Assembly: GCA_028279305.1 (NCBI GenBank)
Contig: JANQOA010000197.1
Location: 1 to 36,604 of the forward strand
Direction: 5' to 3'
Length of the DNA stretch: 36,604 bases
Source: Pseudomonadales bacterium
Lineage (GTDB): Bacteria > Pseudomonadota > Gammaproteobacteria > Pseudomonadales > Azotimanducaceae
The first letter of the stretch is position 1. Each line of letters starts with the position of its first letter. The translations under genes were made by a program, and so were the position numbers. This document shows positions 7,751 to 32,138 of this stretch, in pieces. Under the pieces are notes generated by a model, which was not told where the DNA came from, did not search any database, and saw only the letters and a list, made by a program, of their open reading frames with translations.

Positions 7751-8224
7751 TCAGGGGCGCTGCAGGCGGAATGCCATGCCCACTTCAGCAGCTTCTTCAA
7801 GGCTCGGCATCTGCGCAATGATGTCGGGGTAGTCGGCTGCGTAGCGGTCAACGTATTTCCGGTAGATGTCCGGTTCCGGCGGCTGCAGCGCCTCGGCGCG
7901 CAAACTGTAAACCGTGTCTTCAACGCGCAGGCGCACGGCGGGTGAGCGCAGCGCGGATTCAACCCAGCCGCTGTCGCGTGAACCGAATACGTACAATTCG
8001 TTGTCCGTTTCCACCACCCAGATGGTAACCACCCGCGGCAACAGGCCGCCGCTGGTTTGCAGCAGTACTTCGTGGGGCAGGTGCAGGTCGGACCAGCGGG
8101 CCGGGGGTGCTGCTTCAGTGCCCCCCAGCCGGAAGCCGGGCACCGGCCCCAGGGGTGCGGCCAGGGCACCCGCGAGTAACAGGACAACAAGCACAATAAG
8201 CGAAATGGAAAGCCATCGGGGCAT
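7751..8224 (-). CDS. Membrane-anchored split-barrel-like hypothetical protein
   Basis: This 157-residue protein has a hydrophobic N-terminal anchor or signal (about 5-25, ISLIVLVVLLLAGALAA) and a beta-rich domain: VTIWVVETDNELYVFGSRDS then GWVESALRSPAVRLRVED. The alternation resembles the flavin/pyridoxamine-oxidase-like split barrels (DUF2255 and related nitroreductase folds), but this is a pattern judgement. It is homologous to the lipoprotein encoded at 14174-14608: both share the I/L-W-V/I-V/I strand, YV-x2-G, WVE, VRL and a terminal FRLQ. Start and M20-peptidase stop overlap as TAATG, with GGAGGTG upstream, so it is coupled to the peptidase. Confidence 0.75.
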   Translation of the reverse strand: MPRWLSISLIVLVVLLLAGALAAPLGPVPGFRLGGTEAAPPARWSDLHLPHEVLLQTSGGLLPRVVTIWVVETDNELYVFGSRDSGWVESALRSPAVRLRVEDTVYSLRAEALQPPEPDIYRKYVDRYAADYPDIIAQMPSLEEAAEVGMAFRLQRP

Positions 8225-14173: not shown

Positions 14174-14608
14174 TTACCGCGGCTGCAGGCGGAACAGATA
14201 GGCTTCGTTGACGTTTTCGTTGCGCGGGCGGTTACCGTACTTGCCTTCGTAAGCGTCAGCGAAGCGCTTGAACTCCGCAGCGTCGGTGACCCGCACCGCC
14301 TGCAAGTCGTACAAAGCACCGTCAGCCAGCAAACGCACTTCGTTGTTACTTTCGATGTGCTCCACCCAGGTGGTCCGGTTGGCGCCGGCGTGCACGTACG
14401 CTGCTGAACCCAGCCCGATAATCCATAGTTTTACCGAATAAGGGTCCGCCGGGTTGGTTTCCAGCTGCACAATGTCCACTGCCGCGGCAACGCTCCAGTC
14501 CTCTGGCATCTGGGATTGAGTGCCCTGCAGAGCACCGCCGGAAAATGGAATGTAGCCGCAGGCGGCCAGGCTTAACAAAGCCACGGCAAGAAACGGAATT
14601 CTGATCAT
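14174..14608 (-). CDS. Lipoprotein, homologue of the 7751-8224 product
   Basis: The 144-residue product opens with a lipoprotein signal: IPFLAVALLSLAAC, with the lipobox Cys at residue 17. The mature part contains VKLWIIGLGSAAYV, TTWVEHI, EVRLLADGALYDLQAVRV and ends YLFRLQPR. These segments align in order with IWVV, YVFGSRDS, GWVES, VRLRVEDTVYSLRAE and FRLQRP of the membrane-anchored protein at 7751-8224, so the two are paralogues. The fold may be a split barrel of the pyridoxamine-oxidase type (inference). The start has AAGGGGC upstream. It is convergent with the TonB receptor and may be monocistronic. Confidence 0.75.
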   Translation of the reverse strand: MIRIPFLAVALLSLAACGYIPFSGGALQGTQSQMPEDWSVAAAVDIVQLETNPADPYSVKLWIIGLGSAAYVHAGANRTTWVEHIESNNEVRLLADGALYDLQAVRVTDAAEFKRFADAYEGKYGNRPRNENVNEAYLFRLQPR

Positions 14609-18578: not shown

Positions 18579-18698
18579 TAAGTAAATACCCATATGGAAG
18601 TTGCAGGGGGCTTGACGCTGCAACCGGTTGCGGCGCAGGTTGGTACACTTTGCCCGGAACGGGCTTTACAGAGCACGCTACTCGAGGGAGTGCGAAAA

Positions 18699-19652
18699 AT
18701 GAGTGAAAGGGCGGATGCGAGGGCGCATGAATGGCATGCGTACTACCTGCAGTTTGAATACTTTTCCGCAGCCGCGGTGCGGGACGGCTGTCACCCCAGG
18801 GTGCGGCTGCACGCGGAACCGCAGGGGTCCGTGGTGCTGGTGCACGGCCTCTCCGATTCCCCCTATTTCATGCAGGCCATAGCAGATCACTTTTATAGCC
18901 GGCACCGCTACAACGTTTATCTGCCCCTGTTGCATGGGCACGGTTTAGTTGAGCCCCGCGGCATGAACGATGTTTCCCTGGAGGAATGGAAGCGCAATGT
19001 TGCCTGGTCGGTGCAACAGGCGCATGCGGCCACGCCGCAACGGGTCAGTGTGGGCGGGCTGTCCACCGGCGGTGCGCTCAGCCTGCATGCGCTGTGCAAT
19101 AACGAACAGGTCAGCGGGGACCTGTTCCTGTTCTCCGGCGCCCTGGACCTGATTATCCGCGGCAACAGTCTGCTCGGTGACCTGGCCGAGATGATTCTGC
19201 GCAACAAGTGGGTGAACCGGGCGCTGGATGCGCGCAACCGCAACCGCCCGCTGGTGGGGGAAAATCCCTACCGCTACGCCTATGTGGATATGGACGGGGC
19301 GCGCGAGTTAGCGCGGCTGATTGCCGAGCTGGACAATCTGTACACCACTTTTGCCGAAAGCCGGGCGTACCGCCGTCGTATATTTGCCGCCCATTCCGAA
19401 GACGACCTGACGGCTGATATCCGCGGCATCCAGCGGCTGGCGGAAACCGCCGGTGACCACTGCCGCTTATGCATTTTCCCGCTGGAGGATAATGTCACCC
19501 ATGCCGGCCTGGTGTTGCCGCAAGACCTGACCACCGCGGACGGCCGCCTGCTGGAAGCCGGCAACCGCCGCTTTAGCAGGCTGCTGGACGCCATCGATTC
19601 CTTTCTGGCGGAAAGCAGCCGGGCGGAAGGCGCTAGCGCGGCGCGTGATTAA
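18699..19652 (+). CDS. Alpha/beta hydrolase, serine carboxylesterase-like
   Basis: The 317-residue protein has VVLVHGLSDSPYFMQ (45-59) as the oxyanion strand, nucleophile Ser122 in VGGLSTGGALS, an acidic residue in HSEDDLTAD (about 232-240) and His268 in NVTHAGLVLP. This arrangement matches bacterial monoglyceride-lipase/carboxylesterase-like hydrolases. No signal peptide is seen. I use ATG 18699, which is preceded by GAGGGAGTGCG; an upstream in-frame ATG at 18594 would add 35 residues that look non-coding. It is divergent from the TetR gene, and its 3' end overlaps the convergent membrane-protein gene by 20 bp. Confidence 0.88.
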   Translation: MSERADARAHEWHAYYLQFEYFSAAAVRDGCHPRVRLHAEPQGSVVLVHGLSDSPYFMQAIADHFYSRHRYNVYLPLLHGHGLVEPRGMNDVSLEEWKRNVAWSVQQAHAATPQRVSVGGLSTGGALSLHALCNNEQVSGDLFLFSGALDLIIRGNSLLGDLAEMILRNKWVNRALDARNRNRPLVGENPYRYAYVDMDGARELARLIAELDNLYTTFAESRAYRRRIFAAHSEDDLTADIRGIQRLAETAGDHCRLCIFPLEDNVTHAGLVLPQDLTTADGRLLEAGNRRFSRLLDAIDSFLAESSRAEGASAARD

Positions 19653-20667
19653 TGTGCAACTGGCCCTGGCCGGCCAGATTGCCGTACACGTCCAGGGTGG
19701 TGAAGTCGATATGTGTCTGGTCTGAATACTGCCCCTGTCCCTGGCCCACCAGCTGGCCGCCGCGGTTGTAGAGTTCGTACACCACCATGCCGGAGTTAGG
19801 GTCTATCATCCCCGTCATGCCGTATGCCGGGTTGTTCGGATTGCTGTTGTAACCCTCAAACTGGGTGTTGCTGACCCGCATATTCCAGACGTTTCCATAA
19901 GGGTCGTACCACTGCTGCTGTACCACCGCTGCGTTGGGTTGGTTAGGCGTATTGCCCGGATTGACCTGGGGTTGCACCGCCGGTTGGGGTTGCGGGTCCG
20001 CAGGCTGCGGTTTCTGTGCCGGCTGCGGCTGCGCCGGTTCCTGGGTTTTAGGCTGCTCGGGCTGTTGCGGTTGCGGTGCTTCAGGGCGCGGCATCAGCAG
20101 GTACAGGCCCAGCACCACAGCCACCGCAATAAGAATATAGCGGTTGTTGCCGCTGCCGAGTTTGCTCAGCAGCGAGCCGCCGCCGGCAGTTTCATGCCCG
20201 TCAGCCGGTTGGCTGTTGTTGCCGCCGGCAGGCGGCGCCGGTTGCGGCTGGTCAGGCTGGACAACCTCGGATACCCCGACCCAGTCATCCGCGCCTGCAG
20301 CCGGCGGTACCGGGGGCAGCTGCGCCGCAGGCAGGGTGGACGGCAGCTCACCCAGCCCCAACGCGTAGGTGAATGCCTGGATCACCTGCCGGGCAATGTC
20401 TTCGCGCACCCCGCGGCTGGTATCCAGGCGGGTCACCAGCCTGTCGGTCTGCATGCCTAATTCTTCTGCCGGGGAGTTGGTCAGAATATCGATCACCCCC
20501 TCGTCGATCACATCAAGGGCAATGCGGATCTCCCGGTCCGCGTCTTGCATGTGGTCAGCTAGCAGCCCGCGCAGGCGCTGATGTTTGCTGAAGCCGTCTT
20601 CCGGAAAACGCTCGTGCACATCCCTCAGGACTTTAGCCAGGCGGTCATAAACTTCAGTATCCGACAC
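19633..20667 (-). CDS. Single-span membrane protein of the kinase/FHA cluster, unknown function
   Basis: This 344-residue protein has three parts. Residues 1-110 form a helical acidic domain (RLRGLLADHMQDADREIRIA to IARQVIQAFTYALGLGE), of a type I have seen beside bacterial kinases and chaperones but cannot name. A Pro/Gln-rich tract runs on both sides of one membrane span (about 176-193, ILIAVAVVLGLYLL). The C-terminal domain (about 250-344) is beta-rich and Gly/Asn/Tyr-rich (WYDPYGNVWNM, YELYNRGGQLVGQGQ). Predicted topology: N-terminus in the cytoplasm, C-terminus in the periplasm. The start is GTG with AAGGAGA upstream. It is the last gene of a six-gene minus-strand operon, 47 bp after the vWA gene, and could be its sensor or output. 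Confidence 0.78.
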   Translation of the reverse strand: MSDTEVYDRLAKVLRDVHERFPEDGFSKHQRLRGLLADHMQDADREIRIALDVIDEGVIDILTNSPAEELGMQTDRLVTRLDTSRGVREDIARQVIQAFTYALGLGELPSTLPAAQLPPVPPAAGADDWVGVSEVVQPDQPQPAPPAGGNNSQPADGHETAGGGSLLSKLGSGNNRYILIAVAVVLGLYLLMPRPEAPQPQQPEQPKTQEPAQPQPAQKPQPADPQPQPAVQPQVNPGNTPNQPNAAVVQQQWYDPYGNVWNMRVSNTQFEGYNSNPNNPAYGMTGMIDPNSGMVVYELYNRGGQLVGQGQGQYSDQTHIDFTTLDVYGNLAGQGQLHINHAPR

Positions 20668-20714
20668 TTATTATCTCCTTTGCATCTGCATGTCCGCGTG
20701 CATGTTTGTTATAA

Positions 20715-21422
20715 CTACCAGACCACCGAAGAGCCCGGAGCCTCCAACTCCGGGGCGTCCTGGGCCAGTTGCGAAGCCGGGTCCGGCGCATTGGTGGGGG
20801 AAGAGGTGGCTTTGACCGGGGCGGTGGTTGCCCACTTGATGCTTTTCACCAGATCCGGCGCATTGTTGGCGCGCAGCGGTTTCAGGCGTTCCTGGGGGCT
20901 GTCCATGAAGCGCTCCAGGGTTTCCAGATCCGCGTTGCTGCCGATGGCGATGGCCAGGCGGGTGGCAGCCAGCGCTGCGTCCCTGGCAAAAAAGGCAGCC
21001 AGGCCCTGATCCACATCGTCGGTGGGATAACCGTCTGAGGTCAATACGATAACCGGCGGCAGCTGCCGGGGCGCCTGTTCGGAATCCAGCACCTCAGCCA
21101 GCATCTGCAAAGCCGCGCCCATGGCGGTTTCACCTCCGGCACTCAGGTCTTCCCAGGTAAGGTCAGCAATTGGACAGGGTTCTTCGATGTGCCAGCGTGC
21201 TACGGTATCAAAGCGCAGCACGCGTACAAACAGTTGTACTTCGGGGTTTTCCCGGGCCACTGCCTGCAGTTCCGGAATGGCGCTGCGCATGGCGTAATTC
21301 AAGGAAGCGATGCGGTCGCCGCGCATGGATCCGGAGCAATCCAGCGCAAACAGCACGTGCAGCTGGCGGCGGGTGAGCGCGGCGGGATCGATCTGCGGCA
21401 CGGGCGGGCGTTGGTCTGTCAT
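20715..21422 (-). CDS. vWA-domain protein, TerY-like
   Basis: The von Willebrand A domain fills residues 20-210. The metal-ion-dependent adhesion site is intact: D28-C-S30-G-S32, Thr98 in GGETAMGAA and Asp129 in TSDGYPTDD. This arrangement, with LFALDCSGSM, resembles TerY of tellurium-resistance clusters. A low-complexity C-terminal tail (about 205-235) is Ala/Pro/Ser-rich. There is no signal peptide, so it is cytoplasmic. It is encoded in the same operon as a PP2C phosphatase and a zinc-ribbon kinase, the set known as the TerY-P triad. In that context vWA proteins are thought to act as phospho-regulated scaffolds. The start has GAGGT upstream; PrsW stops 9 bp before. Confidence 0.88.
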   Translation of the reverse strand: MTDQRPPVPQIDPAALTRRQLHVLFALDCSGSMRGDRIASLNYAMRSAIPELQAVARENPEVQLFVRVLRFDTVARWHIEEPCPIADLTWEDLSAGGETAMGAALQMLAEVLDSEQAPRQLPPVIVLTSDGYPTDDVDQGLAAFFARDAALAATRLAIAIGSNADLETLERFMDSPQERLKPLRANNAPDLVKSIKWATTAPVKATSSPTNAPDPASQLAQDAPELEAPGSSVVW

Positions 21423-21431
21423 GATATTACC

Positions 21432-22937
21432 TCAACCCAGTACTTCCGCGGTGATACCCGCGCCGAAATCAATTTTAACGCCGTTAGCCAGCCGGATATT
21501 GCGTCCCGGATTGATGGTCTGCAGGCTGCCGTCGCGGAGGGTGGCGGTCCAATCACCGCTGCCGTTATTCTTCAGGCCCAGCACATCCGCCCGCACCGGA
21601 TGCTGGGTGATTTCAGCCGCGGTAGCGCCGGCCAGCGCGGGGATCTGGCTGAGGTCCAGGGGCCCCACCGCAACCGGCAGAGTGGCGGACTCGAACACCA
21701 GGCGCAATTCCGCCGCCGCCGGCGGGGCGGATGCGGGCGCCGCAGCCGGGGCCGGGTTGGCCTGAGGTGCGGCGGCCGGCGCCGGATTGGCCCGGGGTGC
21801 GGCAGCAGGTGCTGCAGGCTGGGGCGCATCAGCGGCCGCGTCTGCGCCTACAACAATGGAACCGTAGGTATCCGTATAGCGGCCGTGGCTCATGGCGATC
21901 TGCCTGGCTTTCAGCAGGCATGCAACCAGGAACACGCCGCCGGCACCCACCGCCAGATATTGCAGCGGCTCAAAAAAGTTGCTGGTGTTCCACATCGCAT
22001 GCAAGGCGGAAGTGCCCAGCCATGCGTAGATCACGTACTTGAACCCGTCCTTGGGTCTGGCCACCCACAAACCGATAAAATAACCGTTGATGCCGGCCCA
22101 GCCCATGTGGCCGACAATACCGCCGATGGTGCGCGGTAACATAAGCATCAACGCGTAGGCCATGCTGGCGCCGCCGTCGCCGGTGGCTTCATAGGTACTT
22201 TTCAGTTGTCCGGGCACATACTGCAAGCCGGTTTCGATGAGGATAAAGCCGGCGCCGCCGCATAGGCCCAGCAACATACCGTCCAACGGGCCGCGCACGC
22301 GCAGGTACTCGAACCACTTTTCCCCCAGGCGCGGCTGCCAGGTCTGCGGGTGCAGCGACATGTATGCCAGCAGCAGCACCAGGGTTACTTTCATCAGTTC
22401 TTCCATCAGGCCGGCGCCGAAAAACATGCCGATAAACGCGGAAAAGAAATCGTTGGAACCGGTCCATGCCTCACCGCCGGGGAGGATGCCGCGGAACACC
22501 ACAAAGTAAATGATGCCCAGGCTGGTGGTGAGCAGCAGGGCAACAAATACCGCGTTCAGCAGAGGCACCCAGAATGGCTTGTCGGTGCGGGAGTAGATAA
22601 ACAGCACCAGCAGCAGCAGCGCCAGCAGATAGCTGATGGACAGCAGGCCGAAGGTGATAAACGTCTGTTCGGTAGGGCGCTGCATCAGCTCAAACATGTA
22701 GTCAAAACCCACCAGCGTCGCCAGGCCGGTGAAGATCACCAGATAGAAGATGGGACTTTTGAAAATGTTGATGGTACTGGACTTGAGCGGCACCAGCTCG
22801 GAATAACTCGGCTCGTTGTAGTCCCGGGGCACCGGCGGCATGTCAGGGCGCGGCGCCGCCTGTCTGTCTGTCTGTTTGTTATCCGTCTGACTATCGGTTT
22901 TTTTGTCTGTCTCTTTATCTTTCTCTTTGTCATTCAT
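21432..22937 (-). CDS. PrsW-family intramembrane protease with C-terminal FHA-like module
   Basis: The 501 residues begin with a charged, Lys/Asp/Thr-rich cytoplasmic tail (1-30). Seven to eight membrane spans follow (about 63-345). PrsW motifs are intact: MEELMKV (Glu179, Glu180, Lys183), FILIETG with Glu235, GHMGW with His277, and HAMWN with His313. Known PrsW cleaves the anti-sigma factor RsiW in Bacillus, in the CPBP-related membrane protease group. After a repetitive Ala/Pro linker (about 370-408), the last ~60 residues are HPVRADVLGLKNNGSGDW to INPGRNIRLANGVK. This is homologous to the C-terminus of the adjacent kinase and FHA-like. The protease gene lies between phosphatase and vWA genes. 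Its substrate is unknown. Confidence 0.85.
   Translation of the reverse strand: MNDKEKDKETDKKTDSQTDNKQTDRQAAPRPDMPPVPRDYNEPSYSELVPLKSSTINIFKSPIFYLVIFTGLATLVGFDYMFELMQRPTEQTFITFGLLSISYLLALLLLVLFIYSRTDKPFWVPLLNAVFVALLLTTSLGIIYFVVFRGILPGGEAWTGSNDFFSAFIGMFFGAGLMEELMKVTLVLLLAYMSLHPQTWQPRLGEKWFEYLRVRGPLDGMLLGLCGGAGFILIETGLQYVPGQLKSTYEATGDGGASMAYALMLMLPRTIGGIVGHMGWAGINGYFIGLWVARPKDGFKYVIYAWLGTSALHAMWNTSNFFEPLQYLAVGAGGVFLVACLLKARQIAMSHGRYTDTYGSIVVGADAAADAPQPAAPAAAPRANPAPAAAPQANPAPAAAPASAPPAAAELRLVFESATLPVAVGPLDLSQIPALAGATAAEITQHPVRADVLGLKNNGSGDWTATLRDGSLQTINPGRNIRLANGVKIDFGAGITAEVLG
22861..22875 (-). repeat. Short tetranucleotide repeat in the PrsW 5' coding region
   Basis: TGTC is repeated almost four times (15 bases), near the start of the PrsW coding sequence. 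Seven Ts lie a little beyond it. A unit of 4 is not a multiple of 3, so slippage would put most of the protein out of frame. The tract is short, so the effect may be small. Confidence 0.55.
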
Positions 22938-23012
22938 CGAATAGTTTGCTCCCTCTATCCCAGCGCCGCCCGACGTTTTCTAACGCAGCTTGCCTATTGT
23001 GTCCATTCTGTT

Positions 23013-23807
23013 CTATGCGGTAAATCTTGACGAAGCCAGGCACAAGGTGGCGTCATCCCCGCTGCCGGCGTCCGAAACCTGCCGCAGCCAGTCCGGCAGG
23101 GCCTGCAGGGTGGCCTGCAGTTCAGCTTGTCCGGACACCAGTTCGCGGTAGTGCTGTACCGTTTTTGTGAAGGTGGCGTCATCCACAAATGACTTTGACA
23201 CGCCGTCGGTGGCCACCAGGGCAAAATCCGGCCAGGCTTCACCGCTGCCCAGCACGCGGATGCGCAGATGACTTTGCGCGTCCGCCATGCACAGCGAATA
23301 AGTCTGCTCCCCATGCAGGCCTTCATCCGCGGGCAAAGCCCGGGTTACCGAACCATCCGCATAACCCCACAGCAGGTCGCCGTCGCCGATCTGCAGAGCC
23401 AGGCAGAAATGCGCGTTGCCGGCTACCCCCACCAGGGTGGTGCCGTAAGGCTCATAGGGATCAAAACTGTAGTTTTCCGCATAGGGGTTGGCGTTGATGT
23501 GCTGTACCACCAGGCGCCGCCACAGGGTGACAATATCTTCACCCAGTCCGCGCAGCTCCTGGGGGTCGTCCAGCACCCATTCCACAGCCTGTTGAAAAGC
23601 GCTGATGGCCAGCTCAGCCCCGCTCTGGGAACGGAAATGGCGGTTGCTGCCGTGGCCGTCAGCCACGGCGATCATGAAACGTGTGCCTGGCTGGCTTTGG
23701 GGACTGGCGTACCAGGCGTCCTGGTTGGGTGTATTGCGGCGCAGGTGTGCAGAGCCTATGGCGCTGGCGCCGCCGGCCCGCCATTGTTTACCTCCGGGGT
23801 CAGCCAC
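23013..23807 (-). CDS. PP2C-type protein phosphatase
   Basis: The 264-residue protein has PPM/PP2C motifs in order: NQDAW (Asp30), VADGHGS (Asp50-Gly51), YGTTLVGV (121-128), IGDGD (140-144), ATDGVSKSF (Asp201) and GDDATL (Asp251, Asp252), which coordinate the two Mn/Mg ions. All metal ligands are present, so an active Ser/Thr phosphatase is expected. It starts at GTG 23807, overlapping the kinase stop by 8 bp with GGAGGAC inside the end of the kinase gene. This means kinase and phosphatase are translated together. They form an opposed pair with the vWA protein as likely target. It resembles the phosphatase of TerY-P triads. Confidence 0.93.
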   Translation of the reverse strand: MADPGGKQWRAGGASAIGSAHLRRNTPNQDAWYASPQSQPGTRFMIAVADGHGSNRHFRSQSGAELAISAFQQAVEWVLDDPQELRGLGEDIVTLWRRLVVQHINANPYAENYSFDPYEPYGTTLVGVAGNAHFCLALQIGDGDLLWGYADGSVTRALPADEGLHGEQTYSLCMADAQSHLRIRVLGSGEAWPDFALVATDGVSKSFVDDATFTKTVQHYRELVSGQAELQATLQALPDWLRQVSDAGSGDDATLCLASSRFTA

Positions 23808-25140
23808 TTGTGTCCTCCGGGTTGTTGATCAGCGCCGGTCCGCTGTCGAGCTCCAGGTTCAGCCCGTGCAATAAGCGGATGGTCTGTCCCGGATTAATCG
23901 GCGTAGCGCTGTAACCGGGAATTTCCGCCCGCCAGGTGCTGTTGCTGAGGTTGCGCAGCCCCAGCACGTGCTGGTGTTCCGGGTGGGCCTCGACCCGGGC
24001 GAGCGGGGCGTCAGCGCCGCTGTCATCCACATCCCGTTGCGCCAGCGTAGCGCCGGCCTGTAACACAAGGATGCGGCGCCCCATCTGCATCAGCGCCGCC
24101 ATGCCGGGGTCCCGCCGGCAGTAGCCGCACAGCACATCCGTGCGGTTACCCTGGTCATCCAACTGGGCGATGTTTTCGTAGCCGCATTCGGCACACTGAT
24201 AAACCGCCGCCGGGATGGCGTCGAACACGCTGCGCCATTCGTGTTCGTGAATACGCAGCTGAGGGTTGAACAAACCCGTTGTGAAGGATCTTGAAAACAG
24301 GCTGCGCAGCGCCGGGTTCAAGGATTGCCAGCGGTACACCAGGGCATCGTGCATGCCCTCCAGCGGCCCGTTGGCGGAGTTTACATCGTCAAAGATAAAT
24401 ACCGGCTCGGTTCCGTACAGACGGTTTTCAGCGTCCGCATCGAGAATGCGGATTTCCGCCTCGCGCCTGCCGTCCAGGGGGTGCCAGCCGAACATGACGT
24501 AAAAGAACATCACCGCCATGGAGAACAGGTCGGTTTTTGTACACGGCAGGGTTTCGCGGCGCACCACCTCCGGTGCCATGAATTTGCGGGTGCCGTAGAT
24601 GCTGGCCGGCGCACCGTCGATGTTTACGTTGTCGTTGTCGCAGACCAGGATGTCGGCCTGCTGCGGGTGGAGGAATATGTTGCCGAAGTTGATGTCCTGG
24701 TAACAGAACCCGCTGGCGTGCAGTTGCAGAAAACAGTGGGCCACGTGCCGGCTGACCCGGGCGCGTTGGGCCAGGGTCAACTCCACCCGCTGCGGCGGCG
24801 GAGCGATCAACTCGCGCATGCCCACATACTCCGCCTGGCGCAGCGGCATGACGTAACCAAAACTTGCGTGTCCCGGGATGCTGACCATCTCCAGCGGCCA
24901 CAAGAAGCGCGGATCCGGTGCGCCGCGCTCCACCGCTTTGGACAGCCGGCTGCGCAGGCCGGTATCCAGCGCAATGTAATGTTCGTGGTACCACTTCAGG
25001 GCAAACCTGCCGCCGTCCAGACTGATTTCGTAGACCGCACCCTGGCCGCCTGCGCCCAGCAGGTTGCCTACGGATCCGGCGCGCCGGCCGCTGTCGGTAT
25101 GGAATACGGTGCCCGGCTCCAGGTTGTCGTCACTGCTCAT
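23800..25140 (-). CDS. Divergent Ser/Thr protein kinase with zinc ribbon and FHA-like tail
   Basis: Residues 25-310 are a protein-kinase domain with glycine loop LGAGGQGAVYE (28-38), ATP-binding Lys49 and MAPE (188-191). The catalytic loop reads CYQDINFGNIFL in place of HRDLKxxN, with Asp149 and Asn154 kept. The metal-binding triad reads CDND (Asp168) in place of DFG. This family-specific drift matches kinases of the TerY-P triad. A zinc ribbon follows (Cys316, Cys319, Cys338, Cys341). The last ~65 residues (about 381-437) form an FHA-like module (VLGLRNLSNSTW, INPGQTIRLL) shared with the PrsW protein. It lies 9 bp after the FHA-lipase gene and overlaps the phosphatase gene. Activity is expected but not certain because HRD and DFG are altered. 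Confidence 0.9.
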   Translation of the reverse strand: MSSDDNLEPGTVFHTDSGRRAGSVGNLLGAGGQGAVYEISLDGGRFALKWYHEHYIALDTGLRSRLSKAVERGAPDPRFLWPLEMVSIPGHASFGYVMPLRQAEYVGMRELIAPPPQRVELTLAQRARVSRHVAHCFLQLHASGFCYQDINFGNIFLHPQQADILVCDNDNVNIDGAPASIYGTRKFMAPEVVRRETLPCTKTDLFSMAVMFFYVMFGWHPLDGRREAEIRILDADAENRLYGTEPVFIFDDVNSANGPLEGMHDALVYRWQSLNPALRSLFSRSFTTGLFNPQLRIHEHEWRSVFDAIPAAVYQCAECGYENIAQLDDQGNRTDVLCGYCRRDPGMAALMQMGRRILVLQAGATLAQRDVDDSGADAPLARVEAHPEHQHVLGLRNLSNSTWRAEIPGYSATPINPGQTIRLLHGLNLELDSGPALINNPEDTSG

Positions 25141-25149
25141 GAGCCGCGC

Positions 25150-26892
25150 TTATCCTTCCAGCAGTTCCAGCCGTATCCGCATCTTAACGTCGTTGTCGTT
25201 CCACAGGGAGCCGTGGTGCTGGCGCACCGGATGGATGTCTGCCCCCTGCAGATAGCCGTAGCGGTCCACCACCCGGTTGTCGCCGGCCGCTTCGATATGG
25301 AACTTAACGTTGTCCCAGCTGCCCTGTTCGGTAATCCGGCCAACGTCGATGCGGGTGACTGTTTTGATACCGTAGCCGAAAATACAGGTGGTCGGCACGC
25401 TGGTGCCGGGGCCGATCTCACTGTGGAACTCCCGCGCACTGGTCAGCAGATGCCGGTGCTCTTCCTTAACCCAGCTGTTGTCCGCGTGCAGGTCGATGAC
25501 TTCGCCGTCCGGGCCGTAGGCGGCAGGATAGGGGGGCACCAGCTGGTACGCTGAAGGCATGGTGATCAGAGCGGCGTGCAGGTTCTTGCGGCGGATGCCC
25601 AACGGCAGCACGTCGGGACCGTACATCAGAGCCTGGATGACAAACGGCGCGCCGAAGTGCGCGCCGGCCAGCGCAACAAATTTATCCACGTGCTCGGCGC
25701 CGCCCAGACAATTCAGGTAGTAGCGGGACACCAGCGCACCCATGCTGTGGCAGAGGATGGTGAACCTGGTATCGGTGCCGATCACGTCGCGGCGCCACCG
25801 GTCGATGGCCAGCTTAAGTTTTTCCGCCGTGTCGCGGTTATCCTGGCGCCAGTCGTAGGGGAATTCCAGCAGGTCTTCACCGGCTACGTAACCCAACTCC
25901 TGCTCCAGGTAAGCCACCAGCTCCGAATAGGCGTCCAGTTTGATGAAACCGGGGATCACGATAATTTCTTTGACCATCTTGCCCAGCCGCAGGGTGGGGG
26001 CGGTACCCACGGCTATGGATTCCGGGCGCCGCAGTACCTGCCGCAGGTTGGGCCAGATCAGCGTATCACCCGCGTACAGTTCGGAGCCCATGATGCCGGG
26101 CAGCACAACAACCGGGCGCCGCGCCTGGCCGGTTCCGGGAGCTGCCGCCAGCTCGCTGTAACTGACCCCGGCTTTGTAAACCAGAAAGGTATGGCCGATG
26201 CGAAAGTTCACGCCGTTGAACAATGCCTGTTCCTGAATCTGGCGCGCACGCAGAAAGGTGCCGTTTTTGGACCCCAGGTCCCGCAGCACCACCTGATTGC
26301 CATGCCTTTGCAGCACCGCATGCTGGCGGGAAACGGCTTCATCGTCGATGCTGATGGCGCATTCCGGATCGCGGCCGATATAGGTCTCCCCTTCGCTCAA
26401 CACATATTCCGTGGTGGCTGCGGGTGTGTAGACGACAATGCGCGGCACCGATAGGTCCTGGTAAGCCTGCTGCACCCCGTCGTAGGTCAAGGTCAGTTCT
26501 CCGGGTGCAATGGTTTCCACCACGCTGGGTTCATCTGCGCCGGCGTTAACTTCAATGTACTCCGGATTGCGCACGGGTGCCTGCACGTGGCCGGGCAGTT
26601 CCAGGGTTAAAGTGGTGTCACCCAGCACAATTTTGTTACCGTCCGCCACGCTTGCGGTGGTGACCGGGATGCCGTCGACAGTGGTGCCGCCGCTTGATTG
26701 CAGGTCTTCGATGGTCACCTGCCGGGGTTCAACCACCATACGCAGATGGCGGGCGGATACTTTCGGGTCCGTCAGCGGCACATCACAGCTTCTGCTGCGG
26801 CCGAATATGATCTCGCCGCCGCTGAGACGCACCACTCTGTGGCCTGCCGGGGCGTCGATATATACATTGCCGCAAAATTCGTCCGTTGCCAT
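25150..26892 (-). CDS. Tandem FHA domains fused to LCAT/PGAP1-like lipase
   Basis: Two forkhead-associated domains come first: residues 20-95 (FGRSRSCDVPLTDPKVSARH, then SSGGTTVDG) and 165-235 (YIGRDPECAISIDDEAVSRQ with H191, then SKNGTF). Both keep the G-R and S-x2-H phosphothreonine-binding residues. A lipase of the lecithin:cholesterol acyltransferase type follows (260-580): VVVLPGIMGSEL (261-272), FPYDWRQDNRD and nucleophile Ser383 in CHSMGALVSRYYL. Asp and His of the triad lie among GDNRVVDRYG and HPVRQHHGS. No signal peptide: it should work in the cytoplasm or at the inner membrane, recruited to phosphorylated partners. It is the first gene of the operon, divergent from the transporter-like gene. 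Confidence 0.92.
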   Translation of the reverse strand: MATDEFCGNVYIDAPAGHRVVRLSGGEIIFGRSRSCDVPLTDPKVSARHLRMVVEPRQVTIEDLQSSGGTTVDGIPVTTASVADGNKIVLGDTTLTLELPGHVQAPVRNPEYIEVNAGADEPSVVETIAPGELTLTYDGVQQAYQDLSVPRIVVYTPAATTEYVLSEGETYIGRDPECAISIDDEAVSRQHAVLQRHGNQVVLRDLGSKNGTFLRARQIQEQALFNGVNFRIGHTFLVYKAGVSYSELAAAPGTGQARRPVVVLPGIMGSELYAGDTLIWPNLRQVLRRPESIAVGTAPTLRLGKMVKEIIVIPGFIKLDAYSELVAYLEQELGYVAGEDLLEFPYDWRQDNRDTAEKLKLAIDRWRRDVIGTDTRFTILCHSMGALVSRYYLNCLGGAEHVDKFVALAGAHFGAPFVIQALMYGPDVLPLGIRRKNLHAALITMPSAYQLVPPYPAAYGPDGEVIDLHADNSWVKEEHRHLLTSAREFHSEIGPGTSVPTTCIFGYGIKTVTRIDVGRITEQGSWDNVKFHIEAAGDNRVVDRYGYLQGADIHPVRQHHGSLWNDNDVKMRIRLELLEG

Positions 26893-26981
26893 GCCTTCCC
26901 GTTGCGCTTGTTACAAGCTTTGTTATTCAGCGACGCCGGCCGTCTTCACCGGAAATTACCCGCCGCTATATACTGCCGGCT

Positions 26982-29900
26982 ATGATCAATCGAATAATCA
27001 GCGTGCGCAAGCACGAGTGGCGCACGGTGATTCTGCTGGGCAGTTACTACTTTGTCATGCTGGCCGCCACCACCATGATGGTGACCGCCAGCGACGCGTT
27101 ATTTGTCGGCGCGTTTGATGCCCAGCGGCTGCCCTACGGCATCGCCGCGGCGCAGATCTGTTCAGTGGGCGGCTTTTACCTGTACCGGTTGCTGCGCCGG
27201 GTTGTCCCCACCCGCTGGCTGAATGTCTGCGCCTCCCTGCTGCTGGTGCTTGGGGTGAGCGCGTTGTTTTATTATCTGTGGCGCGGATATACCGAGGCGA
27301 TTTTTGCTTTCATCACCATCGTGCCGCTGTACCAGGCCATCCTCGGCGCTGAATACGGCCGAATGTCCGCCAGCCTGATAGATGCCCGTTCAGCACGCCG
27401 GCTGCTGCCCCTGCTGGGCGCCATTGGCGGCGCCGGGGCGGCAGGCGGGGCATTGCTGGTGTCCTGGGTGTCGGAGCAATGGACGCAGATCTATGTGGTG
27501 CCCATTGTTGCCGGCTGCATCATGCTGCTGTTGATACCGGCGTCTCTGATCAAAGAATCGCAGCGTCCGCGGGCCAGCACCGCGCATGCCGGTATAGGTG
27601 AAGTGTTTGCGCACAGATATGCGCTGGCGCTGCTGCTGGCGGGGGCCCTGATTATTGCTCTCAGTACCATCGTGCGCACCCAGTTCGGCGCCATGGCCAG
27701 CGAAAACTTCAGCGGTGATGAACTGGGGGTGTTTTACGGCAACTTCTTCTCCTGGCTGAACCTGGCTTCGATATTTTTTGCCCTGATTGCCAGCAACTGG
27801 CTGATGTCGAATCTGGGCGCGGCGCGCTCGCTGCTGTTCTACCCGGGCATTATGGGCCTGATTGCAGCGGTGGGTACCCAGTTACCGCAGCTGCTGGTCA
27901 CCAGTGCCAGCCAGTTCATGGAGCGGCTGGTGCGGCAGAATATCCACAACACCGCCAGCACCATTGCCGGCATGCCCATCAAGGTCAGTGTACGCATCCG
28001 CATGGCAATGCTGTCCAGCGGCGTGGTAAAACCGCTGGCCGTGCTGGCCACCTCCGGCGCCCTCCTGGTTACGTTTGGAAATTTGTCACTATTCGAGACC
28101 GCCATTAGCTGGCAGCAGCTTTATTATCCGGTGGTTGTGTTGGCGCTTCTGTTGATCGCATTGATGTGGTTTGTTCGCCGGCGCTACGCTGCGGCGTTGA
28201 CGGACGCGCTGCATGCCCGGCGCCTGCAGCTGGACTATGAACAGAAGGATGATGAGCTGTTGAGCATGGTGCCCATGGATCCGGCGTTGCGCCGGACGCT
28301 GCACGGTTATCTCAGCAGTGACCTGCAGGAAAGGGTAGGGCTGGCGCTGGAATTGCTTGAAGGGCACGAGAATGGGGAGACGGTGGCCTTGATTATGCAG
28401 CATTGGCCGCTGTGGGAGGACTGGACCAGGATACGCGCGGTGACGTCGCTCAGCCGTACCGCGGACGATGAGGCGCGGGAATTTCTGCGCCGGCAATTTA
28501 CGCAGGAATCTGACGCTGTGCAGGCGGCATTGCTGGCCCACGATGCTGACAACTTCAGCACCGCTGAATTGTGGGCGTTGTTGGGCGAAGACGGTGCCAA
28601 CGGCGACGGCGGGCCGGATCAGGGGCGGAGCCATGCGCAGGTTGGAACAACCGATAGCGCCGCCGGCACGCTGCTCAAAACCGCTGCCGTGGCGCAGCTT
28701 GTGCAGCGCCAGGCGCCGGCGCTGCAGGAGCGCCTGCGCGCATGGCTGCAGGGTGAGGTCAGTGAGGGGCAGGCCCAGTTGGCGGCGGAGTGCCTGCGCG
28801 GCTGGCCGGACGGGCAGCTTGATGACGTGTTGCCGCGCCTGTTACCCCTGGCGCCGCAGGCGGTGCTGGAAGTGATGGCGGCGCGGCCGCAGGCTGCATA
28901 TGCGGAATTGTGTATCCCCTGGCTGAGCCGCGAACAGACCTACAATGCGGCGCGGGGGGTGCTGCTGGCGCTGGGCGAACACGCGATAGCGGCGCTTGAA
29001 CGCGCGGCGCTGGATCCCTTTGCGTCCAACAGCAGCTTTGGCGTGCTGGCTGAAATTGAGGGCCGCGGCGCGCATCTGGCGGGCATGCGCCTGATGGCCA
29101 ACGCCTCCCAGGATGTACGCAACCGTGCCGCTAAGGCGCGGCTGCGCGCACCTTATGCCATCAGTTCGCCTGAAATGGCCCTGGTGCGCGAAAACGCTGA
29201 AGAAGCGGTCAACCAGGCGGAACGGTTCCACGCTTACATGTTGAATTCCGCGGGGGTTGCCGAGAGTGTCGCGCGCAGCGAACGGGACGCCGCCCTGGAG
29301 GATGTATTTCTTAATTTGACCCTGGCTGATCCTGACACCCCGTTCAGGCAGATGTTGCTGGCGGTGCAGGGGTTTGACCAGAAGCAGAAGGCGCTGGCCC
29401 TGGAACTGCTGGATGAACATCTGCCAAACCGCATGAGCAAGCGTCTGGTGCCGGTGCTGGAGGACGAACCGATCCGTTCCTCCCATGACATTGATGCGGA
29501 CCGCGACTGGCTGCAGTTGCAGGAGCGCCTGGATCAGAAGGTGCCGCAGACTGCCCATGAGTCGATTGCCCTGCGCACCCTTAAGGAAGTGCCGCTGTTT
29601 GCCCGCTGGCGGGTCAGTGAACTGGAGGCGCTGGTGCAGCTCGGGCAGATGGAGGTGGGTCCGGCGGCGCTGGTGCTGCGCGACGGGGTGGCTGTACAAC
29701 TGGAGGAAACCCTGTTGAGCGGGCGCACGCCGCCGCTGCGGGAGGCGGATGTCTGCCTGCCGCTGGATCTGCTGTACCGGGCGCTGAACGCTGCGCCGCG
29801 CTGCGGGCAATTATGGCTGCAGTCGTTGGCGGCGCGCATGCCGGCTCCGGTACAGGGGCAGGTTGAAGTGACCCGCAGCGCCATGGTGTCGCTGGCCAGC

Positions 29901-30377
29901 AGGGCGGTGGCGGAAGACCATGCCGCGTCGGGTGAAATTGACATCTGGCAGCGTATGTTTTTCCTGCGCAGCAGTACCCTGGGGCAGAACCTGCCCGCCG
30001 CGCGCCTGCGGCTGCTGGCGCAGATCTCAAAAACGCTGAGCGCCGGCGCAGGGGAGTTGGTGGTGCACGAAGGGCGCCTTGGCCACCACTTTTATCTGTT
30101 GTGCACGGGGGCTGCTGAAGTCAGTTTGCAGGGGCAGGTACTGCATAAGCTTGGGCCTTCGGACGGTTTTGGTGCGCTGTCGCTGATTCAAGGCCAGCGC
30201 CGCCCCGTGACGGTACGCGTGACCCAGGACAGTGAGCTGATTGCCATCTCCCGCATCGACTTTCTCGACCTGCTGGAAACTCATCCGGCCCTGGTGCGTT
30301 CGATGGCGCGCAACCTGGCCAACCAGATTCTGTCGCTGCAGGAGTTGGACGGCAGCGCCTCGTTATCCGCTGATTAA
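26982..30377 (+). CDS. Npt-like nucleotide transporter domain fused to helical repeats and cNMP-binding domain
   Basis: The N-terminal ~430 residues form about 11-12 membrane spans and resemble the Npt1/Npt2 ADP/ATP-translocase group of the MFS, found with C-terminal soluble domains in several bacteria. The middle (about 430-980) is helical, Leu/Ala-rich and HEAT-like, in repeats with spacing near 35-40. The end (about 1000-1125) is a cyclic-nucleotide-binding domain: VVHEGRLGHHFYLLCTGAAE, LGPSDGFGALSLIQGQRRPV and a final helix. The PBC Arg/Glu context (GFGALSLIQGQRRPVTVRV) looks functional. It may link nucleotide state to signalling, but substrate is unknown. I start at ATG 26982 because 32 upstream codons look non-coding. 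It is divergent from the FHA-lipase operon by about 90 bp. Confidence 0.85.
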   Translation: MINRIISVRKHEWRTVILLGSYYFVMLAATTMMVTASDALFVGAFDAQRLPYGIAAAQICSVGGFYLYRLLRRVVPTRWLNVCASLLLVLGVSALFYYLWRGYTEAIFAFITIVPLYQAILGAEYGRMSASLIDARSARRLLPLLGAIGGAGAAGGALLVSWVSEQWTQIYVVPIVAGCIMLLLIPASLIKESQRPRASTAHAGIGEVFAHRYALALLLAGALIIALSTIVRTQFGAMASENFSGDELGVFYGNFFSWLNLASIFFALIASNWLMSNLGAARSLLFYPGIMGLIAAVGTQLPQLLVTSASQFMERLVRQNIHNTASTIAGMPIKVSVRIRMAMLSSGVVKPLAVLATSGALLVTFGNLSLFETAISWQQLYYPVVVLALLLIALMWFVRRRYAAALTDALHARRLQLDYEQKDDELLSMVPMDPALRRTLHGYLSSDLQERVGLALELLEGHENGETVALIMQHWPLWEDWTRIRAVTSLSRTADDEAREFLRRQFTQESDAVQAALLAHDADNFSTAELWALLGEDGANGDGGPDQGRSHAQVGTTDSAAGTLLKTAAVAQLVQRQAPALQERLRAWLQGEVSEGQAQLAAECLRGWPDGQLDDVLPRLLPLAPQAVLEVMAARPQAAYAELCIPWLSREQTYNAARGVLLALGEHAIAALERAALDPFASNSSFGVLAEIEGRGAHLAGMRLMANASQDVRNRAAKARLRAPYAISSPEMALVRENAEEAVNQAERFHAYMLNSAGVAESVARSERDAALEDVFLNLTLADPDTPFRQMLLAVQGFDQKQKALALELLDEHLPNRMSKRLVPVLEDEPIRSSHDIDADRDWLQLQERLDQKVPQTAHESIALRTLKEVPLFARWRVSELEALVQLGQMEVGPAALVLRDGVAVQLEETLLSGRTPPLREADVCLPLDLLYRALNAAPRCGQLWLQSLAARMPAPVQGQVEVTRSAMVSLASRAVAEDHAASGEIDIWQRMFFLRSSTLGQNLPAARLRLLAQISKTLSAGAGELVVHEGRLGHHFYLLCTGAAEVSLQGQVLHKLGPSDGFGALSLIQGQRRPVTVRVTQDSELIAISRIDFLDLLETHPALVRSMARNLANQILSLQELDGSASLSAD

Positions 30378-30640
30378 CGGTCGCGCTCGTAACTCATTGA
30401 ATTTCAAGTCACTAACCTCAGTTGCTCGCCGAACAACGAGTCATTAATCGGGCCCACCTCTCTTGAGCAGCCGCCGAACCGTCCAGACCTAACATCTAGT
30501 CTTCTAGCCCTCGTAACGCGCCTCCTTATTCACTTTTGTATACTTTGCAATTCAGTATTTTATTAAAATACACGGTTATTCGACATACTGTATGTTTATA
30601 CTAGTTGTATTTTATTAAAATACAGAATATATTCGCATAC
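30378..30640 (+). other. Intergenic region with AbiEi promoter
   Basis: This stretch marks the change from GC-rich to AT-richer DNA. No gene is seen. It holds the three-palindrome array at 30555-30623 and a -10-like TATACT (30598-30603), which lies between the second and third palindromes. No terminator with a T-run was found for the upstream transporter-like gene. Confidence 0.6.
30555..30623. promoter_or_regulatory. Three evenly spaced palindromes upstream of the AbiEi-type gene
   Basis: Two identical 17-bp palindromes, GTATTTTATTAAAATAC, lie at 30555-30571 and 30607-30623. Midway is a third, ACATACTGTATGT (30583-30595). The centres are 26 bp apart on each side, with 11-bp spacers. The array covers the candidate -10 sequence. 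AbiEi proteins are known to repress their own promoters by binding inverted repeats, so this is the likely operator. Confidence 0.75.
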
Positions 30641-31681
30641 ATGCAGCGTGATAAAACGAAAACCGAAATTCTCGACCTGGCTCTGGCAGCCGCAGCTAGA
30701 GAGGCCGGCCTCGACGTAAAGGTCGTAGCAAGAGAAAAGAAAGAAGAGAGAGGTAAGCGTACGATTTACGTCGATGCCTTGCTCGTAATAGACGGGGTGA
30801 ACTACCAAGCTGAAATAAAACGCTGGACCCAGCACGCCCCCATTGGTGGTTTAATCCAACAAACTGCTCAACTCGACAACGGCATACTCATCGCCGATTA
30901 CATCAACCCAAACATCGCTGAGCAGCTGCGGCACGCGAATGTTCAGTTCCTGGATACGGCGGGCAACATTTTCATAAAGCAACCTGGCCTACACATCCAA
31001 ATCAAAGGGAACCGCCCTAAGGAAGAAGCCTTTGCTGGTCCCAGAATGATCGCCCGAGCATTCACGACTGCTGGTCTAAAAGTCACCTTCGCTCTTCTAC
31101 TGCAACCTGAAAGAGCCAAATTGCCCTACCGTCAGATCGCTGAGTTGGCCGGCGTCACGCTGGGAACGGTTGGCAAGGCGATGGAAGACCTTAAGGAACG
31201 CGGATACCTCGTCACTCGTAGAAAGGAGCGAGTTCTCATTCGACTGGCCGAGCTTTTCCAGAAGTGGATCGAACACTATCCGGCGACGCTGCGTAAGAAG
31301 ATCAACCTGGGAACGTTCAAAGCTGCCGAAGCGAACTGGTGGAAAGAAACCAATTTGCAAAACCTGGGAGGTTGTTGGGGCGGAGAAATCGCGGCGATGC
31401 GCTACACCGAATATCTAAAACCGCAAATTGCAACCGTTTATCTTCCAAGAGAAGAACTGATGAAATTCATTGCAACAGCGCGACTCATAAAGACGAACAC
31501 TAGAGAAGACACCGCAACCATCGAGGTTTACGAAAAATTCTGGTTGGGGAACGATGAAGAAGAGTACACAGACCCTCTACTTACGTATGCCGACCTCATG
31601 GCAACAGATGATGCAAGAAATCTAGAGACAGCGAGGAGGCTCTATGAGGAGACAATTGCTCGACATCTCGGGGAAGCTTGA
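30641..31681 (+). CDS. AbiEi-family antitoxin/transcriptional regulator (type IV TA)
   Basis: The 346-residue protein has the layout of AbiEi_2-type antitoxins. Residues 1-135 precede the helix-turn-helix and include VDALLVIDGVNYQAEIKRW, whose Asp45, Glu58 and Lys60 resemble the PD-(D/E)xK nuclease core. A winged helix-turn-helix (about 160-205) reads LPYRQIAELAGVTLGTVGKA and DLKERGYLVTRR. The C-terminal domain (about 205-346) has WWKETNLQN, WGGEIAAMRYTEYLKPQI, DPLLTYADLM and NLETARRLYEE, as in the family. The start is ATG 30641; an upstream in-frame TTG at 30605 lies in the palindrome. The gene is AT-richer than both flanks. The next gene begins inside its last 38 bases. Confidence 0.85.
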   Translation: MQRDKTKTEILDLALAAAAREAGLDVKVVAREKKEERGKRTIYVDALLVIDGVNYQAEIKRWTQHAPIGGLIQQTAQLDNGILIADYINPNIAEQLRHANVQFLDTAGNIFIKQPGLHIQIKGNRPKEEAFAGPRMIARAFTTAGLKVTFALLLQPERAKLPYRQIAELAGVTLGTVGKAMEDLKERGYLVTRRKERVLIRLAELFQKWIEHYPATLRKKINLGTFKAAEANWWKETNLQNLGGCWGGEIAAMRYTEYLKPQIATVYLPREELMKFIATARLIKTNTREDTATIEVYEKFWLGNDEEEYTDPLLTYADLMATDDARNLETARRLYEETIARHLGEA

Positions 31682-32138
31682 CGATGCATCGATTCACGTA
31701 ATAGAAGCCATTTCGGAAGAAGCGAACAAACTATCCATTCCATTCTTGATCGTTGGTGCTGCCGCGCGCGATATGCTCATGCACCACTACTATGGCGTCG
31801 TGATTCAGCGCGCGACCACGGACGTCGACTTTGCCATTGATATCGCTGATTGGGAAGGCTACCAATTGCTGACTGCGAGCCTAATTGATCGAGGATTCGA
31901 AACAACTCAGCAGAAGCAGCGGTTGAAAGCAGACGACCATATGCATGTCGACATCGTTCCCTTCGGCGTAATTGCGGACACCAACGGCGACGTTCAATGG
32001 CCACCGCACCAGGACATTGAGATGAAGGTATTGGGATTTGAAGAAGCGCTAAGCAACCCAGTACACGTTAAGGTCAGATCCACACCCGACCTCATCGTTC
32101 GAGGGGCACTGACGATTTTGATGAAAACTATAAACTGA
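31644..32138 (+). pseudogene. Truncated AbiEii-like nucleotidyltransferase (toxin remnant)
   Basis: The 164-residue frame begins at ATG 31644 behind AGGAGG and overlaps the AbiEi-type gene by 38 bases. It carries the nucleotidyltransferase core FLIVGAAARDMLMHHYYGVV and RATTDVDFAIDIADWEGY, which matches AbiEii-like minimal NTPs, then HVDIVPFGV and VLGFEEALSN. Family members are usually about 250-290 residues. Here the protein loses similarity at VRSTPDLIV and stops 15 residues later. The usual SLPGLALLKLIAW and KDALDL parts are missing. Another frame after the stop encodes only a short fragment (DDFDENYKLMNAFIKGFN). This points to a deletion or frameshift, leaving an incomplete toxin. It could still be expressed as a short protein. 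Confidence 0.7.

Follow-up and report, generated by a model that had tools for sequence, protein, structure and literature searches.

A TerY-P-type triad in one gene block with an FHA-FHA-LCAT protein and a tail-bearing PrsW in a Pseudomonadales genome

The TerY-P triad was reportedly described by Anantharaman et al. in 2012. Then, what do such triads phosphorylate and control? To our knowledge, this question is still largely open. Here, we address it for a block of seven genes in the window, that is, the whole analysed stretch of 36,604 nucleotides (contig JANQOA010000197.1, assembly GCA_028279305.1), which comes from the draft genome of a Pseudomonadales bacterium (5.70 Mb, 97.4% complete). 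According to the accessible part of PMC11090510, the triad comprises a stand-alone vWA protein, a PP2C phosphatase and a kinase with a C-terminal zinc ribbon within one operon, and the same three are found here. Unlike the triad described there, the present one comes with no TerD that we could find, its kinase bears an extra tail of predicted FHA fold, and it is joined by a PrsW protease, an FHA-FHA-LCAT protein and a membrane-anchored protein with an adaptor-like domain termed ND.

A second close system is the GAP1-N2-associated kinase of Kaur et al. (2020), for which the same trio, with a zinc ribbon and a 'beta-strand-rich domain', is described (PMC7159879, accessible part). Those trios are actinobacterial and tied to GTPases, and neither a lipase nor PrsW is mentioned in that part of the paper, whereas here the tail is assigned a predicted FHA fold and occurs also on PrsW. 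The 'beta-strand-rich' tail may be the tail found here, the two being set side by side by description and not by sequence; if they are the same domain, the present block may assign a fold to it (PMC7159879, same part).

In the archaeal ArnA-ArnB pair, the FHA protein binds the vWA protein at its C terminus, where the known phosphorylation sites of the vWA protein lie (PMC6509490, in the part available). An FHA protein, a vWA protein and dependence on phosphorylation are thus common to both cases; unlike the block here, ArnA and ArnB are archaeal motility regulators, and the available part of PMC6509490 mentions neither lipase nor protease. The vWA and the FHA protein of the window weakly match chains of PDB entry 8s05 (E 0.0016 and 0.00094, respectively). 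We take this entry to be the ArnA-ArnB complex, its title saying only 'Conserved protein'. The kinase/PP2C/FHA pathway of the type VI secretion system of Pseudomonas is a parallel in logic, and the single-span protein RsiW is the substrate of Bacillus PrsW. Fusions of PrsW to signalling domains, FHA among them, are also known (PMC3482391, as far as the accessible text goes), and the tail here differs from these fusions in having no FHA signature and in being common to the neighbouring kinase.

The kinds of components are known, and the combination looks new: no description of this gene combination was found in our searches of the open-licence PMC literature, nor one of an intracellular lipase effector that a TerY-P triad controls through phosphorylation. 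The triad is accompanied in this block by a canonical FHA domain, the reader, fused to an assayable enzyme, by a protease marked with the tail of the kinase, and by an adaptor that tracks the kinase type. The block therefore yields concrete, testable substrates and outputs for TerY-P triads.

The gene block and its triad

The six minus-strand open reading frames at 19633-26892 were verified, with the coordinates and families that a sequence-only reading of the window had given (Table 1). The Pfam cut-offs are exceeded by FHA (two stretches), LCAT, Pkinase, PP2C_2, PrsW-protease and VWA, which supports five of the proteins, and the sixth, said to be single-span, has one hydrophobic segment by hydropathy. 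The gaps, in transcription order, are 9, -8, 75, 9 and 47 bases, so that the description 'tiny gaps or overlaps' fits the first two and the fourth but not those of 75 and 47 bases. Similarly, the block limits proposed there enclose the six genes but omit the divergent gene at 26982-30377 (+), although it is part of the conserved block. The triad is also not 'fused' into the operon, since kinase, PP2C and vWA are separate genes.

Among 58 genomes searched, including its own (G000), the identical seven-gene order was found in one other genome, G027, of the same genus, whose contig is identical to the public record JANQMF010000100.1, a metagenome-assembled genome of a Pseudomonadales bacterium. 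The gaps there (locus L062) are -4, -4, 21, -4 and 21 bases, and the ND-protein gene ends with the contig after 187 codons, before the transmembrane segment. The proteins are 50-76% identical between the two blocks, and the orthologues show nonsynonymous divergence (dN) of 0.19-0.48 and synonymous divergence (dS) of 1.8-2.6, near saturation and with two dS values not computable, a pattern consistent with purifying selection. Beyond the MFS-like gene the flanks differ, a TPR protein being present in G027 and an AbiEi-like regulator in the window. The order recurs in G027, and therefore it is not an assembly accident; the block is a rare accessory block, not an artefact.

The rarity is also seen for single genes. 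The MFS-like gene with its cNMP-binding domain occurs at E <= 1e-30 in two of the 58 genomes, G000 and G027, which are the two holding the whole operon, and the same two alone have a full-length kinase relative at the threshold used; G044 gives a partial kinase match, which lies within its Ter cluster. PrsW relatives were found in the own genome only among 369 genomes of the class, a sample outside which G027 lies, and none was found in plasmids, phages or viral contigs (69 pattern matches checked). The FHA-FHA-LCAT protein was found at E <= 1e-40 in the own genome only (one of 269), and G008, of the same genus, has a relative of 34% identity in another setting. No third genome with the six-gene order was found in these searches.

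The sequence motifs of the triad are intact. K49, D149, N154 and D168 are invariant in five aligned kinases, where DND replaces DFG, and the CxxC zinc ribbon noticed earlier is indeed present as CxxC...CxxC in all five. The PP2C keeps D50GHG, GDGD, TDG and GDD, and the MIDAS of the vWA (DxSxS...T...D: D28, S30, S32, T99, D130) is invariant in six of six aligned proteins, including two encoded in the Ter cluster of G044. The C-terminal tail of the vWA contains 22% serine and threonine, versus 10%. We presume the usual meanings for these catalytic motifs, as for those of PrsW and LCAT below. All three defining features tested, namely a vWA with MIDAS, a PP2C in the operon and a kinase with a C-terminal zinc ribbon, were found, and by these sequence features kinase, PP2C and vWA are a TerY-P triad, which agrees with the earlier assignment. 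An AlphaFold model of the kinase has a mean predicted local distance difference test score (pLDDT) of 61.6 and was used only to see the kinase fold emerge.

PADLOC was run on eight window proteins, and its TerY model matches the window vWA at E 0.013. The same model matches the vWA of G027 at 0.0014 and that of a Methylomonas plasmid at 0.0015; in the G044 cluster with TerD, it fails to match one vWA at 0.1. The STK_OB model does not match the window kinase at E 0.1, and, on its sequence, the triad is not an OB-type defence triad. As had been claimed, no TerD is seen: there are no matches in the own draft genome or in G027, with four in G044 and two in G478 (TerC was not searched for). Because no TerD was found, the block is not a Ter cluster.

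Partners of the triad

The kinase and PrsW end in tails that, judged from their profiles, are one domain (Table 1). The kinase as phmmer query matches PrsW, and the reverse also holds; hhalign of the window tails to the tails of kinases from another genus, g393, gives 94.5-97.5%; and a profile made of g393 tails only finds the window PrsW at 1.2e-8 and the kinase at 2.5e-7, with nothing unrelated among the 14 matches listed (3222 open reading frames). The tail is present in six of 299 genomes of the phylum, the own one and five of g393 (G496 and G551 were left out of this query). Apart from PrsW, the carriers of the tail that were seen are all kinases of this type.

Which fold does the tail have? 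The AlphaFold model of the PrsW tail, made from nine sequences, has ten strands and a pLDDT of 90.1. Its 31 best Foldseek matches against the PDB are FHA-domain entries, with probability 0.96-1.00, query TM-score 0.41-0.69 and E 0.0097-0.13 (none below 0.001), and unrelated folds appear from rank 32. Among these entries, APLF/XRCC4, CHK2 and TIFA are counted as FHA on our own presumption and the others by title. Nine positions are invariant (H, P, G, N, W, S, P, L and G), Arg is not among them and there is no SxxH; these residues are not those that bind phospho-threonine. The tail was tried as an ordinary FHA domain by sequence and rejected as such: hhalign to the FHA domains encoded in the operon gives a probability of about 1%, and a search of PDB sequences with the tail profile has no FHA entry among its matches up to E 10. 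Consequently, of the proposal that PrsW has an FHA-like tail, the predicted fold stands, but not the sequence signature. We read the tail as a divergent docking domain of predicted FHA fold.

Similar tailed triads occur elsewhere. Kinase relatives at E <= 1e-20 were found, in 398 genomes of the phylum, in the own genome and four of g393 (full length in three, truncated where the contig ends in the fourth); at two of these loci (L057, L060) the PP2C adjoins the kinase and the vWA lies one gene further. FHA-LCAT was found in none of seven g393 genomes at E <= 1e-20, in a search without a positive control. Among 2203 plasmid records with any kinase match, only three cover 80% of the query, and the other listed matches end before the tail. 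The kinases of the Methylomonas and Prevotella plasmids (37% and 31% identity, each over 95% of the query) have the same architecture, with vWA and PP2C adjoining; that of the Nostoc plasmid (23% over 97%) has a weak tail match of 1.6e-4 and a vWA beside it, with no PP2C match. The kinase of the TerD-bearing G044 cluster gives no tail match. Five IMG/VR contigs have a kinase relative: in L086, L088 and L089 vWA and PP2C lie behind it, contig L087 breaks off at the kinase, and neither gene is seen in L085. A restriction-methyltransferase lies upstream of the triad in L088, and the upstream genes of L087 look like those of L086. In L086 (1-11262), the BREX genes pglX, pglZ and brxL precede the tailed triad, with one small open reading frame between.

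The FHA-FHA-LCAT protein has no N-terminal hydrophobic segment by hydropathy and is predicted from its sequence to be an intracellular lipase or acyltransferase that reads phospho-threonine. Both features of an LCAT-like enzyme, PF02450 and a Ser-Asp-His triad, are present, the activity being predicted from sequence: S383 (HSMG), D538 and H560 do not vary among the 10 aligned proteins, which come from several phyla (the alignment holds 10 of 12 proteins, L035 and L041 being excluded for unclear gene ends). FHA2 is canonical, with the motifs that we take to be GR, SRxH and NGT, and FHA1 keeps GR and VSARH and has lost the Asn of the NGT motif. Between the two domains lies a conserved pair of an acidic residue and Thr or Ser, followed seven residues later by a second Thr or Ser. 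The pair is, in our view, reminiscent of the phospho-motif of GarA/OdhI. In switches of that type, an FHA domain has a conserved Thr motif close by, which it could bind intramolecularly; the closeness of FHA and Thr is the same here, while GarA is not a lipase and the Thr here lies between two FHA domains.

When 84,980 species genomes were scanned with peptide patterns, 40 stretches were obtained, and 15 of them encode a relative. In 10, the relative spans both the FHA and the LCAT regions: the G027 record, five from Chloroflexota (counting Dehalococcoidia, Anaerolineales and Ardenticatenales records), one from Candidatus Aquidulcis, two from Acidobacteria and one from Nitrospirales. At five of the nine loci outside G027 (L034, L035, L037, L040, L041), a Hanks-type kinase adjoins the gene or lies one gene off. 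All five kinases have HRD and DFG motifs (Pfam was run on L034 and L041) and resemble, at E 1e-39 or better, the other kinase of the window (32376-35129). Thus, lipase and FHA are linked repeatedly to Ser/Thr kinases, and to different ones, and these loci of distant phyla independently support a link from kinase to FHA-lipase. At L036, L038, L039 and L042, no kinase adjoins the gene or lies one gene away, and a WD40 protein with a masked stretch stands beside it in L039; a kinase is found beside none of five loci that have LCAT only (L043-L047, two with short flanks). At all 14 distant loci, no relative of PP2C, vWA, PrsW, ND or the MFS-like protein was found at E 0.01. The expectation that the genes co-occur elsewhere is therefore only narrowly borne out: it holds for G027 but for none of the nine distant FHA-FHA-LCAT loci.

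Two further arrangements were seen. In L034 (4694-7480), an ABC-2 transporter with three FHA domains lies between the FHA-FHA-LCAT gene and the Ser/Thr kinase gene. In L056 (8013-10778) and L042 (9989-12051), which represent a second type of FHA-FHA-LCAT locus, a convergent FHA protein, with three FHA domains in L056, replaces the kinase.

PrsW has the PF13367 match, the EExxK motif, conserved His residues and several transmembrane segments, with E179E180xxK183, H277 and H313 invariant in both orthologues, and its protease activity is predicted from these features. The ND protein consists of ND, one transmembrane segment (residues ~177-195), a Pro/Gln linker and a C-terminal part; no Pfam family matches the protein at E 0.1, and the C-terminal part has no PDB match. 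Proteins encoded just downstream of the g393 kinases contain a relative of ND and, after it, an FGE-sulfatase domain (Pfam was run on L057). On the Methylomonas plasmid (L078, 11882-16418), five consecutive genes with ND lie behind the kinase-vWA-PP2C triad, the partners of ND being Sel1 repeats, a part of no assigned kind, Tim44-like, Clp_N and a ClpX zinc finger.

A profile of g393 and Methylomonas members finds the window protein at 1.4e-6, and one of Methylomonas members alone finds it weakly, at 0.0032, only ND proteins being listed among 3222 open reading frames in both cases. The reverse profile, made from the window and G027 proteins alone, finds only those two, and hhalign of the window ND to the g393 N-domain, with shallow profiles, gives 0.6%, within the range of 20 column-shuffled controls; consequently, the membership rests on the two former profiles. 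Among 269 genomes of the phylum (G500, G496 and G551 left out of the query), ND occurs once each, the own genome included, in the same six as the tail, and with an earlier profile the six were again these, out of 200 genomes. In the five g393 genomes, ND is the immediate neighbour of the tail. In 72,556 plasmids the Methylomonas query matches its own record only, and none of 24 pattern matches in viral contigs was confirmed. In the collections scanned, ND was found only in clusters with tailed kinases.

Like the effector-associated domains (EADs) of Kaur et al., ND is grafted onto many partners (PMC7159879, accessible part). By the rule given there, one EAD copy is on a core component and another on an effector of the same system; the five copies of L078 include none on kinase, vWA or PP2C, and G000 has one copy only, so that ND, by its distribution, is not an EAD by the published rule.

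A PPVP motif was also observed in PrsW (residue 34, window 22838), the vWA (residue 6, 21407) and the ND protein (residue 118, 20316), possibly a common short binding motif; in G027, it is kept in PrsW and the vWA and is PAVP in the ND protein.

Proposed mechanism and rival explanations

We propose, tentatively and at somewhat less than an even chance, that the block encodes a membrane-tethered phospho-switch of TerY-P type which gates an intracellular lipase, with PrsW docked by the common tail. Judged by their families and intact motifs, kinase, PP2C and vWA would set the phosphorylation state of partner proteins, with candidate sites in the vWA tail, which is rich in S/T, and at the Thr/Ser that is conserved in the FHA-FHA-LCAT linker. 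The canonical FHA2 would read phospho-threonine and bring or unlock the LCAT-type hydrolase at the inner membrane. Since the tail is found on both the kinase and PrsW, these tails probably dock on one common partner, which would place the protease in the kinase complex. The ND protein, whose part beyond the transmembrane segment would be periplasmic, may be a membrane anchor and sensor, or else a PrsW substrate like RsiW, and the trigger might be phage attack or stress on the envelope. The sequence supplies gene order, families, motif integrity, the common tail and ND membership, and prediction supplies the tail fold; from these we infer the substrates, the docking, the target of the lipase and the substrate of PrsW; PrsW as 'output' would be one of several options. 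In a broader form, which we consider rather unlikely, the block would be the membrane version of a modular signalling platform whose constant core is a tailed TerY-P kinase, served in some lineages by ND as its dedicated adaptor, and whose outputs are exchangeable; in this block they would be a membrane lipase gated by phosphorylation and a protease with a copy of the kinase tail.

Several points weigh against the phospho-switch. Elsewhere, FHA-FHA-LCAT proteins are found with no relative of the triad nearby, and triads are found that have neither FHA-LCAT nor PrsW, so that a single pathway need not contain them all. Only two genomes, related to each other, are known to hold the full combination. 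Phosphorylation of the linker Thr is a guess from conservation, and the S/T enrichment of the vWA tail is modest. The FHA fold of the tail comes from one predicted model, with Foldseek E of 0.01-0.13. ND has no match at the Prevotella-plasmid triad or at the three IMG/VR tailed triads, and therefore the tail occurs without ND. Every mechanistic step is a proposal.

What, then, is the block for? Triad relatives lie near BREX or restriction genes, so anti-phage defence is a serious rival for the purpose: the TerY-P-like triad would sense infection and release a membrane-damaging lipase, PrsW cleavage or both, killing or arresting the cell. TerY-P triads are reported active against T7-like phages (Gao et al., via the accessible part of PMC7699616; also PMC11090510, same limit); among the five IMG/VR kinase relatives, one triad stands behind pglX-pglZ-brxL and one behind a restriction-methyltransferase; the block is patchy, in 2 of 58 genomes; and tailed triads are carried by Methylomonas and Prevotella plasmids. 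However, among the window proteins scanned, no Pfam defence family was seen except the AbiEi-like regulator, which lies 3.7 kb off and differs in GC content, the GC of the block is host-like, the kinase has no STK_OB match and the vWA matches TerY only at 0.013, and the matches of the kinase to PD-T4-6 and mad6 may merely reflect the kinase fold. We regard defence as doubtful on balance.

Alternatively, proteolysis by PrsW could be the real output, the ND protein with its transmembrane segment being cleaved like an anti-sigma factor and the FHA-LCAT protein forming a phospho-regulated side branch. In both genomes only the vWA gene separates PrsW from the ND protein, and the PrsW fusions to FHA and other signalling domains (PMC3482391, accessible text) would agree with such a role; however, the block has no sigma factor or transcription factor, the ND protein has no Pfam DNA-binding family, its copy in G027 breaks off with the contig, short of the transmembrane segment, and cleavage is a proposal, which makes this reading improbable. 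Least of all do we favour co-location without joint function, with lipid enzyme, TerY-P triad and PrsW as chance neighbours in one lineage, which is very improbable given that the order is kept in G027 with gaps of -4 to 21 bases at 50-76% protein identity and that all other carriers seen for the PrsW tail are kinases of this type, although the same order is found in only one other genome and the modules occur apart elsewhere.

Feature coordinates and neighbouring genes

Table 1. Features of the gene block, in coordinates of the window.
Feature	Position	Strand	Evidence and remarks
FHA-FHA-LCAT protein, 580 residues	25150..26892	-	Pfam FHA 5.3e-33, LCAT 1e-14
FHA1-FHA2 linker: acid-[T/S] T127 (9/10 proteins), second T134 (T/S in 7/10)	26490..26520	-	alignment
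FHA2, canonical (GR, SRxH, NGT)	26182..26418	-	motifs; best PDB matches are GarA FHA chains
Ser/Thr kinase with 4-Cys zinc ribbon and tail of predicted FHA fold, 446 residues	23800..25140	-	Pkinase 3.6e-14
Zinc ribbon C316xxC319...C338xxC341	24118..24195	-	invariant in 5/5 aligned kinases
Kinase tail, same domain as PrsW tail	23803..24102	-	hhalign 96.8%, E 2.5e-10; held-out profile 2.5e-7
PP2C phosphatase, 264 residues	23013..23807	-	PP2C_2 7.4e-34; metal-binding motifs present
PrsW intramembrane metalloprotease (predicted), proline/alanine linker, tail of predicted FHA fold, 501 residues	21432..22937	-	PF13367 2.2e-23
PrsW tail, predicted FHA fold, no FHA sequence signature	21435..21719	-	AlphaFold pLDDT 90.1, Foldseek
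Stand-alone TerY-like vWA, 235 residues	20715..21422	-	VWA 2.6e-8; MIDAS intact; S/T-rich C-tail
ND protein, membrane-anchored, 344 residues	19633..20667	-	one hydrophobic segment; no Pfam family
ND, adaptor-like domain, first 115 residues of ND protein	20323..20667	-	profile without window/G027 members, E 1.4e-6
Divergent MFS-like protein with cNMP-binding domain, 1131 residues from likely ATG	26982..30377	+	cNMP_binding 8.8e-15
Divergent intergenic region, 89 bases	26893..26981	.	likely promoter region, inferred

The MFS-like gene starts 89 bases upstream of the operon and runs in the opposite direction, with the cNMP-binding domain at the C terminus of its product; the likeness to MFS is our own reading of the sequence. 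At the other end, an alpha/beta-hydrolase gene (18594-19652, +) is convergent with the ND-protein gene and overlaps it by 20 bases. The promoter scan is near chance, with 4 found versus 2.7 expected. Terminator-like sites number 19 versus 7.7 in shuffles, and 17 of the 19 lie inside genes.

Beyond the block, the AbiEi-like regulator and the next open reading frame (30605-32138) have a GC content of 0.50, compared with 0.58-0.64 in the other window genes for which it was computed, and they were perhaps acquired separately. The other kinase of the window, at 32376-35129 on the minus strand, is a Hanks-type kinase with TPR repeats and lies near two open reading frames without a clear family. In addition, two DUF2255-like proteins are encoded in the window, at 7751-8224 and 14174-14608, the second of them under the curated cut-off.

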